In this document: positions 9,211-13,633 of the stretch, piece by piece
Layout: every line of letters starts with the position of its first letter
Position numbering within the stretch: position 1 is the stretch's first letter
Source of the DNA: Sporisorium sorghi
Lineage: Eukaryota > Basidiomycota > Ustilaginomycetes > Ustilaginales > Ustilaginaceae
Direction: 5' to 3'
DNA length: 27,423 nucleotides
Assembly: GCA_023212695.1 (NCBI GenBank)
Contig: JALCCG010000278.1
Location: 1-27,423 of the forward strand
Notes under the pieces: generated by a model
Databases searched by the model: none
What the model saw: only the letters and a program-made list of their open reading frames with translations
Told to the model about the DNA's origin: nothing
Made by a program: the position numbers and the translations under genes

Positions 9211-10333
9211 TCAATTGCAGCTGCCGTCAGCGGGACCGTCGAGCCATCTCTCCGACAGCTTGGTCTCCGTACACGGGAACGCCGGCTTGCCCAGTCGTTG
9301 GTTGACCTCGTTGTGGATGCCGCACAGCCACTTGCGCAATGCTGGCCCAGAACTAACGGCTTCAGCGAGTCGAACGCTGCAATCCTCCCACCCGCCGTGC
9401 TTGCCTTCGCGCTCGTACTCCTCTCCCAGGGCTTTGGCGCACGAGTGGCACGGGTAGACGTGCGGCAGGGCTCGGAAGAGCGCGAGCATGGAGCTTTGCT
9501 GTTGCGCGGACGGGTCTTCGGGGAAGTAGGCGGCAGCAGAGTGTAGGAAGGTCCAGGTGGATCGGCCGAGTTCCTCTCCGTCAGGAGGGCATGCGGTTGT
9601 TGTACCTGAGGATGAGGCGAGTGTTGTTGTTGCCGCTGCTGCTGTTGTGGCTGCTGCCCCTGCACCTGTTGCGGAAGCCTTTTTGGCGCTAGGGGCTTCT
9701 TTCGAGGCGCTGCCACCCTTGGCTCCCTTCATGGCAGCAGCGAAAGCCAGCTTCGAGTTGCAAGCACGACACGGCTTACCGTCCGGCCCAAGCACAACCG
9801 CAGGCTGTTGACGCGAAGAGCGCACATTGTCGGCGGTGAATCCCTTGCTTTTCTCCAGTTCGGCATCCTCACCCGAAAGCCCCTCGGTCTGAATGGATCG
9901 GTACGTCGTCGGTGCCACGCCCCACTCTGCGACGCCCTCCGGCCGCTCGATTCGCTTGGGCTCCCAGTCGTCCAGCTCGTCCTCCTTCGATTGCAGTTTC
10001 TGCATTCGCAAAGTGGAAAGTCTCGAGTCAGCTTCCTGACCTCAACAGGTCGAGCGTAGTGGAAAGAAAACTTACAAAGTACTCTTCGCGGATATCGATC
10101 CTCTTGCGGTCCTTTTTCATACGCAGCTCCTCCTCCTTGGAGATGGCCTGCACCTTGGTCGCATTATAGTCGTATCGAGTCTGCGTGAGGTTGGCCAGTC
10201 CGAAGCTGGCTCCCACGATGGTGGCCAGGAAGGGAAGACCGAAGAATAGCAGCGGTCTGCGTCGCACTTGTGGCGCCAGTCTCGCTATGAGCGTATTTGA
10301 CTTTCGCAACGGCTTTGATTCGAACGTCGGCAT
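9211..10333 (-). CDS. Cox16-Erv1 fusion: complex IV assembly factor joined to FAD sulfhydryl oxidase
   Basis: Exon 1 is 10076-10333 and exon 2 is 9211-9999. The 76-nt intron (10000-10075; donor GTAAGT, acceptor ATGCAG) is in phase 0 and the product has 348 residues. Residues 1-115 are Cox16: a membrane segment at about 27-50 (RRPLLFFGLPFLATIVGASF), the charged segment RMKKDRKRIDIREEYF, and KLQSKEDELDDWEPKRIERP. Residues 155-348 are Erv1/ALR: the shuttle-type motif CRAC (163-166), CPPDGEELGRSTWTFLHS, the active-site pair YPCHSC (270/273), CGIHNEVNQRLGKPAFPC (312/329). A Lys/Ser/Ala/Thr-rich linker (172-220) lies between the shuttle motif and the FAD domain. In yeast both proteins work at the intermembrane-space side, Erv1 reoxidising Mia40 and Cox16 aiding Cox1 assembly. 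There is no stop between the parts and no ATG in exon 2 before the CRAC motif, so one fused polypeptide is the simplest reading. Confidence 0.88.
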
Positions 10334-10687
10334 CTTGGTTGAAGCAGCCGCTTCCGAGAGCTGGGTAGTGTGCGGATATGTGACCAAGGAAAGGTGCTCA
10401 GCCACGAAGCTTGCCACCTTGATGGCTCGCTACCTCGACCTCCGCGTTCCGAAGACCAGAAAAGAAAAAGAAAATCAAGGAAAAAGGGAAAAAAAAAAAA
10501 AAAAAAAGTGGAGCCGAAATTCTCGGCTGTCCTCTTCCGCGGATGTGAGCGTGGCGGCTTTTTCGAAGCATCAACGTGGGCACGTTTTGTTTCTTCTGAC
10601 GTGTGCACGATCCAACCTTCATCACCTCCATCTCATCCTCACCAAGGCATCAGCAGCATCAGCAGACATGCACACACGAAAGCGGCG
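10334..10687. promoter_or_regulatory. Divergent promoter of Cox16-Erv1 and the PLA2/PPTase gene
   Basis: 354 bp separate the two start codons. The region contains a purine-rich stretch ending in a 19-nt A run (10489-10507), and TGACGTGTGCACG at 10598-10610. An ATG at 10668 opens a ten-codon reading frame ending at 10700 that overlaps the PLA2/PPTase start in another frame, so translation of that gene may be damped if the transcript begins upstream of it. Confidence 0.5.
10489..10507. repeat. 19-nt poly(A) tract in the divergent promoter
   Basis: An uninterrupted A run, preceded by further A-rich sequence from about 10460, roughly 155 bp before the Cox16-Erv1 start codon and 180 bp before the PLA2/PPTase start. 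Poly(dA:dT) tracts commonly keep fungal promoters free of nucleosomes. Confidence 0.8.
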
Positions 10688-13633
10688 ATGCCCATCTTGA
10701 CATCGTTGAGGCAGAGTCCCACCTACCTCTACGTCAAGGTTTACTGTCTATGTGCACTCGTCACGCTGTCACAAGCTGCTCCGGTCTCGTCTCGCATTCC
10801 GCAGCTTGGCCAGAGACTCCAGCTCAACAAGTACAGGCTGATTCGCACGCGGTTAGGTCCGCGCATCGTGCCGGTCGAGGAAGCTGCTGCTCTACTCAAA
10901 GAGGGAGCTTCGGGGTCGTCGTCGCAAGCCGATGGGCAAACTCAACCACCGAATGAGGTCATCCTCTCGAGCGACGTCCTCGGCCCCACCGAGCAAACAT
11001 CCACCATCAGAAAGCTCCTGAAGCGCTGGTCATCCCGAGCCAAAGACCTCGCCCAGGTCAAACGCCTCCTCGCCACCGACGCTACCGACGTCAAAGCGTA
11101 CCCCGAGCTGCAATGGGACGCGACCGTGCGCCGCTCCTCCGCGCTACACCCCGAAGAACTCGCTTTCCTGCGCAAACGCCAGCACCGCCTTTCGTCCCAC
11201 GGCGACGACATCCTCAAGAACTTCCTCTCCCTCCCAGCCTCAGAACACGTCGATCCGCGCGATGTGCCGCTCGTCGCACTCGGCGGGTCCGGCGGCGGCT
11301 ACCGCGCCATGTACGGCTTTGCGGGCTTCATTGCCGCCGCTAAACGCAGCCAGCTCTGGGACTGCCTTTCCTGGGCCGCGGGCGTCAGCGGCAGCTGCTG
11401 GACGCTCGCGGCATACTACACGATCGCGTACCAGGACGCCGACCGGCTGATAAGGCACTACCTCGGCGTGGCGAGCGAGCTGGCGCATCCGCTGAGTGTG
11501 CATGCGCTCGACACGGTTGCGCGCAGCAGCCGCGGCGTGTACTTTTTGCTCGGGCCGCTGGTGCGCAAAGCGCAGGCTGGCATTGTCGGGTTGGGGATTA
11601 TGGATCTATATGCGACGCTGACGACGACGTATCAGTTTTTGTCGAGGGAGCCGCGGGCGCGGTTGAGCCGGGCGAGCTTTCAGTTTTCGAAAGTGTGGTC
11701 GCGCTCCGGGGTGAGCGAGAGCAGGGAGCCCATGCCGATCTTTACGGCGGTAAGGGTGGCGCCGAAGGACGCGCCCGGTGTGCGGCCGCATACGGACTCG
11801 TCGCTGAGCAAGGGGCAGCCGCCCAAGCGCGCGCTCACGCAGCACCAGTCCGCGGCGTCGCAGGCGCTTACGCCGAACAGTGCTGCCCGTAAACCAAGTG
11901 CGGAGTCAAGCGCGCAGAGGCCGGTCGGAGACGACGGCAGCACCGACGTATACGCCCTGCCAGCAGCCAAGGGCTACTTCCAGTGGTTCGAAGCGACCCC
12001 GCTCGAGGTGGGCAGTGCCGATGTACAAGGCTACATCCCCACATGGGCCTGGGGTCGACCGTTCGTTTCCGGCCGCTCGCTCGATCGCCGCCCGGAAGAA
12101 TCACTGTCGCTGCTCCTGGGCCAGTGCACAAGCGCACCCGCTGGCCCGCTGACCGGTTACATCACAGCGCTCCTGGCGTCCCTGCCAAAGGGCACGGCCA
12201 TGTCGCGCACGCTGCACTTTCTGAATAACTTTGTCAGGATGAAGCGGTGGGAGCGCAGGTGGGGTAATCCGATTCGCGCCGGTGACGAGCCGAATCCGTT
12301 TTATGGGCTCAATGTGGCTCCTGTGGCCAAACGGGATGATGGGAGCAAACGGAATCCGAGTATTCTGGGGATAGGCGTTGATATCTTGCACACGCCGCGT
12401 CTGCGACAGCTCCTTCAACGGCGACAAGATCGGTCGAAGAACAATACGACAAGCGAGCGAGCAGCACTGGACAAGCTAGCCAAACGCATCCTGTGCGCGT
12501 CCGAGTGGCAAGAATACAGCCACCTCGCCAACCAGGACCCCTCTTCCTCCGCAGACACCCTCCCGCGACTCGAACAATACCTCGCGAACCGGTGGACAGC
12601 CAAGGAAGCGGCGTACAAAGCGCTCTACCCTCAGTACGTCGTCTCGTGGAAAGATCTCTGCGTGCACAAATCGGGCTCCTCTACCGATGGCACGCCTGTC
12701 GACGGCGTCGACCTGACCCACCTCGAAAAACAAGGCTTTCGCAGCAAGAAGCCGATGCTGGCTCTGTCGGACGAATGGCGGTCGCGGCATGCAGACGTGT
12801 CGGCGGTGCCCAAGCTGCACCTCAGCCTGTCGCATGACGGCGAGTATGTCGTTGCAAACGTGCTGGCTGAAGAGATTCCGTCCAAGCGATTGCCTCAGGC
12901 GTCAACGCCAAAATGGAGCGAGCTCAGCGTCTCGCTGCCGTCGTCGCAGCATGCAGATCCGTTGGAGGACGGTACGCCACTGCAACTGGGAGCATCCTCC
13001 GCGGCTGCAACCCCAGCTTCAGCCGTCAAGCCGCACGACGACAGTACCACAGCTGCTAGTGCCGCCACCGCCTCCTGGGAATCGCAAGGCCGCATCCGCC
13101 TCATGGACGCAGGCATGTCGAACAATCTCCCCAACCACATCCTCGCGCGTCCCTCACGCCGTGCTGACATCATCATCGCGTTCGACGCATCATCCGACGT
13201 GCAAGCCGGCTCGGTCATGCGCCGCATCCACAATTTCGCCGACGACTGCTCCGTCTCCCTCGTGGACCAGACGCACCTGTTTCCCGCTCCCCAGCCTTTT
13301 CTCGATCCTTCTGCGGTGGATGCAGCGACGGAGGCGAAGTTTCTGCACAGCTACGCGCGCGTGCTGAGGGGCGAGCAGGAGGACGGCTCGGCGTTCTGGC
13401 TGGTGTACTGCCCGCTGCTGCCGAACGGGGCGAATGCGGGGTACGATCCGAGCGTGGCGCGGTTTAGCAATTCGTACAACTTGGTGTGGACGCCCGGGCA
13501 GGTCGAGGCGGCGGTGAGGACGTCGAGTGGCAATTTGGAGATGTATGCGTTGCAGACGGTGAAGCATGTTATGCGCAGGGTGTATGAAGAGAAGAAGCGG
13601 GCGAGGTTAGCGGCGGAGACGAGGTCCACGTGA
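10688..13633 (+). CDS. Cytosolic-PLA2-like lipase with nested AcpS-type phosphopantetheinyl transferase
   Basis: A single exon of 981 residues. Residues 1-63 contain Arg and Lys but no acidic residue, and a hydrophobic segment at about 12-31, so the start could be a mitochondrial presequence/anchor or a signal peptide. The cPLA2 catalytic domain starts near residue 190: VALGGSGGGYRAM (R206 as the phosphate-binding Arg), the nucleophile elbow GVSGSCW (S234), PIFTAVRV, YFQWFEATPLEVG. It resumes at IRLMDAGMSNNLP (catalytic D807) and ends near 965. Between NPFYGLNV (about 543) and D807 lies a complete holo-ACP synthase domain (about 557-728; DNA 12356-12871): GIGVDILHTPRL (D565), RILCASEWQEY, LANRWTAKEAAYKAL (E640), LHLSLSHDGEYVVANV. 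It would transfer phosphopantetheine from CoA to an acyl carrier protein. All key residues of both enzymes are present. The ATG at 10688 precedes the hydrophobic N-terminus. The frame is continuous, with no splice signals needed. Confidence 0.88.
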   Translation: MPILTSLRQSPTYLYVKVYCLCALVTLSQAAPVSSRIPQLGQRLQLNKYRLIRTRLGPRIVPVEEAAALLKEGASGSSSQADGQTQPPNEVILSSDVLGPTEQTSTIRKLLKRWSSRAKDLAQVKRLLATDATDVKAYPELQWDATVRRSSALHPEELAFLRKRQHRLSSHGDDILKNFLSLPASEHVDPRDVPLVALGGSGGGYRAMYGFAGFIAAAKRSQLWDCLSWAAGVSGSCWTLAAYYTIAYQDADRLIRHYLGVASELAHPLSVHALDTVARSSRGVYFLLGPLVRKAQAGIVGLGIMDLYATLTTTYQFLSREPRARLSRASFQFSKVWSRSGVSESREPMPIFTAVRVAPKDAPGVRPHTDSSLSKGQPPKRALTQHQSAASQALTPNSAARKPSAESSAQRPVGDDGSTDVYALPAAKGYFQWFEATPLEVGSADVQGYIPTWAWGRPFVSGRSLDRRPEESLSLLLGQCTSAPAGPLTGYITALLASLPKGTAMSRTLHFLNNFVRMKRWERRWGNPIRAGDEPNPFYGLNVAPVAKRDDGSKRNPSILGIGVDILHTPRLRQLLQRRQDRSKNNTTSERAALDKLAKRILCASEWQEYSHLANQDPSSSADTLPRLEQYLANRWTAKEAAYKALYPQYVVSWKDLCVHKSGSSTDGTPVDGVDLTHLEKQGFRSKKPMLALSDEWRSRHADVSAVPKLHLSLSHDGEYVVANVLAEEIPSKRLPQASTPKWSELSVSLPSSQHADPLEDGTPLQLGASSAAATPASAVKPHDDSTTAASAATASWESQGRIRLMDAGMSNNLPNHILARPSRRADIIIAFDASSDVQAGSVMRRIHNFADDCSVSLVDQTHLFPAPQPFLDPSAVDAATEAKFLHSYARVLRGEQEDGSAFWLVYCPLLPNGANAGYDPSVARFSNSYNLVWTPGQVEAAVRTSSGNLEMYALQTVKHVMRRVYEEKKRARLAAETRST

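Follow-up and report, generated by a model that had tools for sequence, protein, structure and literature searches.

An AcpS-type phosphopantetheinyl transferase domain nested within a cPLA2-like lipase of smut fungi

Fungi are reported to use three phosphopantetheinyl transferases (PPTases), namely a domain of fatty acid synthase (FAS), an Sfp-type enzyme and an AcpS-type enzyme for the mitochondrial acyl carrier protein (ACP) (PMC3360786, PMC4659657). The AcpS-type enzyme, described in PMC4659657 as essential for growth in Aspergillus fumigatus and Candida albicans, is known as Ppt2 or PptB (Saccharomyces cerevisiae, A. fumigatus, C. albicans) and is a small separate protein. An AcpS-type PPTase within a larger polypeptide is found in the FAS alpha subunit (PDB 2was, 2wat), where it forms the C-terminal end of the synthase. 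A second described family comprises the group IV cytosolic phospholipases A2 (cPLA2; PDB 1cjy, 5iz5) and fungal cPLA2-like proteins, including AoPlaA of Aspergillus oryzae. Here we describe a gene of the smut fungus Sporisorium sorghi in which, unlike in any of these, a cPLA2-like lipase is split by an entire AcpS domain. The gene lies at 10688..13633 on the forward strand of the window, a 27,423-nucleotide stretch of contig JALCCG010000278.1 (positions 1 to 27,423, assembly GCA_023212695.1). Each of the two families has been described before, and database entries with titles such as 'related to phospholipase A2, cytosolic' already show the domain pair. We found no account of a phospholipase with a PPTase inside it in the literature searched, most subscription journals being outside its scope.

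The gene, identified from its open frame, Pfam matches and orthologues, is a single stop-free frame of 981 codons that remains open across both lipase/AcpS junctions; the longest stop-free run in 300 simulated controls (first-order Markov sequences of 8 kb with the local composition) was 574 codons. Third-position GC was 0.55-0.78 over codons 541-780, with the lowest value at codons 541-600, compared to 0.65-0.87 across most of the lipase. The first lipase part, residues 106-540 (11003..12307), carries the oxyanion motif GGSGGGYRA and the GxSGS nucleophile S234 (GVSGS, codon 11387..11389), and the second, residues 797-980 (13076..13627), carries the dyad aspartate D807 (codon 13106..13108). 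The nucleophile, aspartate and oxyanion motif of group IV cPLA2/PLA2_B are thus all present. Pfam detected PLA2_B with E 1.7e-16 (best stretch residues 196-360), and human cPLA2 was matched among PDB sequences with E 8.9e-19 for the whole protein, in three pieces of which only residues 147-245 were significant alone (430-509 and 802-836 were weak, with independent E-values of 120 and 0.27). Because the pieces behind residue 245 are weak, the second lipase half was assigned mainly from the orthologue alignment and the structure match, in which the predicted model recovered the cPLA2 catalytic-domain fold. An N-terminal C2 domain is present in most, not all, group IV enzymes. Pfam, searched up to E 1, gave no C2 domain, which distinguishes the smut protein from group IV cPLA2 and AoPlaA and is why we refer to it as cPLA2-like. 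Both S234 and D807 were kept in all 43 lipase rows aligned (16 smut, 24 ascomycete and 3 Tilletia).

Between the two lipase parts lies the AcpS domain, residues 557-729 (12356..12874). The Pfam family ACPS (PF01648) matched residues 561-659 with E 2.5e-12 and 47.3 bits (cut-off 25). NCBIfam TIGR00556 matched residues 561-728 (E 2.7e-10), its 40.4 bits being under its own cut-off of 45.35, as was the case for all 10 NCBIfam matches listed, which weighs against the assignment by profile. The Asp and Glu metal ligands, whose catalytic role is known from characterised AcpS, were identified by alignment as D565 in GxGxD (codon 12380..12382) and E640 in KEA (codon 12605..12607), and the LSLSHDG motif is present at residues 712-718 (12821..12841). 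Based on the predicted model and a structure match, the AcpS fold spans about residues 557-729, and strands form both its start and its end. It is flanked by model segments of very low confidence that are probably disordered. These correspond to linker 1, residues 541-556 (12308..12355), and linker 2, residues 730-796 (12875..13075), modelled with low confidence throughout and from residue 736 on, respectively. Both linkers evolve fast, with mean pairwise identities across 15 smut rows of 45% and 27%, compared to 60% for the whole AcpS and 81% (residues 106-360), 93% (429-540), 86% (796-860) and 69% (886-960) for the lipase.

The arrangement is conserved in Ustilaginales. A protein search scored 8000 candidates and yielded 167 matches at E <= 1e-5; 21 of the best 120 of these 167 carried both Pfam domains (P0002-P0020, P0112 and the degenerate P0024). 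The nested order was the same in P0002-P0020 and P0112, some of them on contigs up to 2.8 Mb, and named sources within P0002-P0020 include Sporisorium, Ustilago, Pseudozyma, Melanopsichium and Testicularia. P0112, which was placed among the smuts from its sequence, has a gene model that stops shortly behind the D807 motif, and P0026 is a partial model that starts inside the gene. In an alignment of 56 of 121 proteins, from which P0011, P0012 and P0014 were left out, D565 and E640 were both kept in 18/18 smut rows. An initial annotation, made from the DNA alone, had proposed an intact AcpS domain between S234 and D807 in one 981-codon frame, and the frame, Pfam matches, folds and orthologues all agree with it. 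The four catalytic residues were found at the positions it had named and the late LSLSHDG motif was confirmed, the PLA2_B and ACPS pair recurred in nested order in other smut proteins, and structure prediction returned both folds. Sequence and model thus show the nested arrangement, the two folds and the catalytic residues of each enzyme, which are conserved. The same annotation had argued that nesting requires both folds to tolerate each other; the nesting stands, but the low-confidence flanks and the terminal strands of AcpS suggest a softer constraint.

The nested domain resembles Ppt2/PptB in fold and metal ligands, a comparison drawn via stand-alone fungal AcpS and not via the yeast or Aspergillus sequences. 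Across 16 smut and 21 stand-alone fungal AcpS rows 18 residues were invariant, and D565 and E640 were kept in all 21 of the latter. The nested AcpS was 60% identical to a Botryobasidium AcpS over query residues 2-90, and its best named stand-alone matches were basidiomycetes. It is most likely a Ppt2/PptB-type mitochondrial enzyme that moved into a lipase loop. A bacterial origin was rejected, as the bacterial copy on contig C426 of the S. sorghi assembly is just 31% identical to the Botryobasidium AcpS and the nested copy clusters with fungal ones. The FAS alpha PPT domain is separated from the nested domain by a very long branch. A search with P0216, a stand-alone fungal-like AcpS of 213 residues with a long insertion before SLSHDG, gave 15 proteins at E <= 0.001, itself included.

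The S. sorghi assembly, a draft of 23.2 Mb in 469 contigs, was searched in six frames without considering introns. The ACPS profile matched six places: FAS2 (C422), an Sfp-type gene (C287), contigs C33, C36 and C426, and the lipase-AcpS gene. The neighbours on C33, C36 and C426 look bacterial by eye (GC 0.49-0.50). The copy on C426 (GC 0.49) was rejected as a rival stand-alone AcpS, its neighbours reading by eye as nadE, mutY and superoxide dismutase. When two stand-alone AcpS proteins of basidiomycetes served as queries, the whole draft assembly returned only the lipase-AcpS gene and one weak bacterial match. Hence, the check for another AcpS suggested in the initial annotation gave none on fungal contigs apart from FAS2; as with Ppt2/PptB, the nested domain is of AcpS type, separate from the FAS and Sfp types, and the sole one of its kind on the fungal contigs of this assembly. 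It is probably the only such copy in smuts, and other basidiomycetes have a stand-alone AcpS. One of 33 PP-binding matches, on C254, is an exon of a mitochondrial-type ACP that contains a DSL motif.

The lipase is also found in ascomycetes, the named rows being Sordariomycetes and Leotiomycetes such as Stachybotrys, Fusarium and Mollisia; lineage was checked by look-up for two named rows, and several of the 34 ascomycete rows were assigned by tree position. A recognisable AcpS remnant was present in 11 of the 34, at the same lipase position as the intact smut copies, and both D565 and E640 were lost from every one (0/11 keep them). In the remaining 23 rows AcpS is absent, and the insertion place holds 4 to 101 residues. 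When matched for lipase identity over residues 106-540, AcpS was less conserved in the remnants than in smuts in 5/5 shared bins, several of which hold only 2 to 9 pairs from one group. In Tilletia (Exobasidiomycetes; P0116, P0117, P0119 and P0120) the lipase is present with a low-complexity loop and no AcpS (4/4 aligned). That loop was rejected as a degenerate AcpS, as it fills the same columns but is of low complexity and lacks the motifs; for P0119, Pfam at E up to 10 yielded PLA2_B alone. The Tilletia loops are 89 to 203 residues long, and some contain repeated 'PPRAMxRGRGxxxIY'-like units. The Tilletia and ascomycete orthologues thus share with the smut protein the lipase, a similar N-terminus and the loop position, and differ in what the loop holds. 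Since both groups keep the lipase without a working PPTase, the lipase appears to be independent of the PPTase.

A lipase tree was built with the insert columns removed, a Tilletia root, and P0112, P0115 and P0086 omitted as long-branched or short. The ascomycete clade fell inside the smuts, as sister to Testicularia and most other smuts, with P. flocculosa outside (support 100/98). The approximately unbiased (AU) test rejected smut monophyly (p 0.0135). Of 200 bootstrap trees, 0% grouped the smuts on one side of a branch. In the AcpS tree, nested and remnant copies formed one clade (98/95) among fungal stand-alone AcpS, and the remnants again lay within the smut copies, with another, weakly supported sister. 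With Tilletia recoded by hand as AcpS-less, parsimony required at least 4 presence/absence changes of AcpS with Tilletia and at least 3 without it, and by itself does not separate gain from loss. The simplest account that fits these trees would be that AcpS was captured a single time in Ustilaginales, that the gene passed once to ascomycetes, and that the catalytic residues were lost there before repeated deletion. A literature search on transfer from smuts to Sordariomycetes gave no title concerning the lipase-AcpS gene.

The initial annotation had described the N-terminus as presequence-like, and its composition bears this out. The targeting-like segment, residues 1-63 (10688..10876), is basic, with 9 K/R in the first 60 residues, no D/E in the first 63 and a moderately hydrophobic stretch at residues 16-34, and the N-terminus of the Tilletia lipase resembles it. 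A cPLA2-like protein of A. oryzae is reported as mitochondrial, in the intermembrane space (PMC4931635). This relative backs a predicted mitochondrial location of the smut fusion but would be awkward for loading of a matrix ACP, which we regard as the main difficulty.

Taken together, we consider it likely that Ustilaginales possess a two-enzyme protein in which a captured AcpS serves as the dedicated PPTase of the mitochondrial ACP next to an independent lipase, and that the gene later entered ascomycetes, where the PPTase decayed. An AcpS of the Ppt2/PptB kind, at first a separate fungal protein, would have entered a probably disordered lipase loop a single time, between nucleophile and aspartate, and would have remained active on two flexible linkers hanging from the lipase. 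It would transfer the phosphopantetheine group of CoA to the serine of mitochondrial ACP, with D565 and E640 holding the metal, and the lipase would run its own reaction with S234 and D807. The fusion may secure targeting and dose of the PPTase. After the entry into ascomycetes suggested by the trees, D565 and E640 would have been lost and AcpS would have disappeared from many lineages, with the lipase residues kept; filamentous fungi in general are reported to own a mitochondrial AcpS (PMC3360786), which would make the incoming PPTase redundant. We infer catalytic activity, mitochondrial location, the ACP substrate and tethering without coupling from residues, fold and distribution. More speculatively, and as a reading less likely than not, one may propose that Ustilaginales activate mitochondrial ACP solely from inside a phospholipase, which would tie ACP loading and lipid turnover by gene dose, targeting and membrane contact, and that ascomycetes acquired the gene, dropped the redundant PPTase and kept the foreign lipase.

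Several points weigh against the proposal of a tethered, dedicated PPTase that was passed to ascomycetes. If the smut protein were sorted like its A. oryzae relative, the PPTase could possibly face the wrong side, since the matrix is where apo-ACP would be expected. The active form of bacterial AcpS is a trimer with shared active sites, and the fusion, modelled as a single chain, might not trimerise; the segment holding D807 is also of low confidence. The absence of a second AcpS derives from one draft assembly that includes bacterial contigs and from an intron-blind search. With regard to the trees, the AU result is moderate, and the test was run after a quick tree of the same shape, with P0112, P0115 and P0086 included, was known. 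The lipase tree sets P. flocculosa (Ustilaginaceae) outside Testicularia (Anthracoideaceae), contrary to the NCBI families, the ascomycete branch attaches at differing points within the smuts in the two trees, and the AcpS tree is short (137 columns) with a poor outgroup. Finally, the Sfp-type enzyme could serve mitochondrial ACP, as the single human PPTase is reported to do (PMC4659657).

The initial annotation had gone further and suggested that the two activities may be coupled. The lipase would then act on mitochondrial phospholipid to free a fatty acid, with the tethered AcpS loading ACP on the spot, and in this way the handling of acyl groups that depends on ACP (mitochondrial fatty acid synthesis, lipoate, respiratory-complex assembly) would be tuned to membrane lipid turnover. 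The nested order kept in the 18 aligned smut rows, the strong conservation of both active sites in smuts and the divergent start region common to COX16 are in line with such coupling. However, ascomycetes and Tilletia retain S234 and D807 with no working PPTase beside them, the long low-confidence linkers of the model would favour tethering over a rigid channel, and Pfam, searched up to E 1, found no ACP domain in the protein. Because the lipase persists elsewhere when the PPTase is dead or missing, we regard coupling as unsupported and unlikely.

A second alternative is that the AcpS is active on another carrier or in another compartment, for example outside the matrix, and that the Sfp-type enzyme loads mitochondrial ACP. 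The intermembrane-space location in A. oryzae, the Sfp-type gene in the same genome and the mitochondrial service of the human enzyme, which is of Sfp type, would all accommodate this. Yet PptB is described as essential in A. fumigatus despite the Sfp-type PptA (PMC4659657), so there is no simple stand-in in that species, and we consider this alternative distinctly improbable.

A transfer from smuts to ascomycetes is also better supported than its reverse, in which the fusion arose in ascomycetes and passed to smuts. Ascomycete rows are numerous and Tilletia is the only root of the lipase tree, but both trees nest the ascomycete clade among the smuts, the named stand-alone AcpS among the best matches are basidiomycetes, and 34/34 aligned ascomycete rows have a ligand-less remnant or no AcpS, which together make the reverse direction very improbable. 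An artefact, that is, two merged genes or an intronic AcpS part, is scarcely credible: the P0026 model beginning inside the gene and the dip in third-position GC to 0.55 could hint at one, but the frame is open over both junctions, the order is the same in 20 other database clusters, the AcpS active-site residues are invariant among smuts, decayed copies align at the same position in another phylum, and third-position GC was also taken into account in judging a hidden intron or merger unlikely.

With AcpS intact in smuts, dead or absent in ascomycetes, and a single loop involved, the family offers a natural experiment on gain and loss of a nested domain in which the active-site residues of the host are kept. 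An enzyme described as essential in A. fumigatus and C. albicans seems to survive in smuts only as a guest inside another enzyme, and a census seeking a small separate protein would score smuts as 'Ppt2-less'. Antifungal drugs directed at PptB/Ppt2 have been proposed; in smuts target and lipase are on one chain, which permits a clear test. The bacterial-looking contigs supply 3/6 ACPS matches of the assembly and could mislead a PPTase census. These contigs also show a polyketide synthase cluster and are perhaps Paenibacillus-like. The Sfp-type motif on C287 sits in a 1101-residue open frame after a long Ala/Thr-rich segment, which is either an odd architecture or a fused frame.

Upstream of the lipase-AcpS gene, COX16 (cytochrome c oxidase assembly; PF14138, E 2.1e-21) starts divergently, with 354 bases between the start codons (10334..10687). 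Its first exon is at 10076..10333 on the reverse strand, with the exon end set by eye at a GT site. Erv1/Alr and COX16 (window 9214-10333, reverse strand) adjoin the lipase-AcpS gene and form with it a three-gene run of likely mitochondrial role; we take COX16 and Erv1/Alr to be mitochondrial families. The divergent COX16 neighbour is weakly in line with a mitochondrial location. Elsewhere in the window, a match to a DDE_3 superfamily endonuclease at 1171-1839 on the forward strand is likely a transposon remnant or gene.

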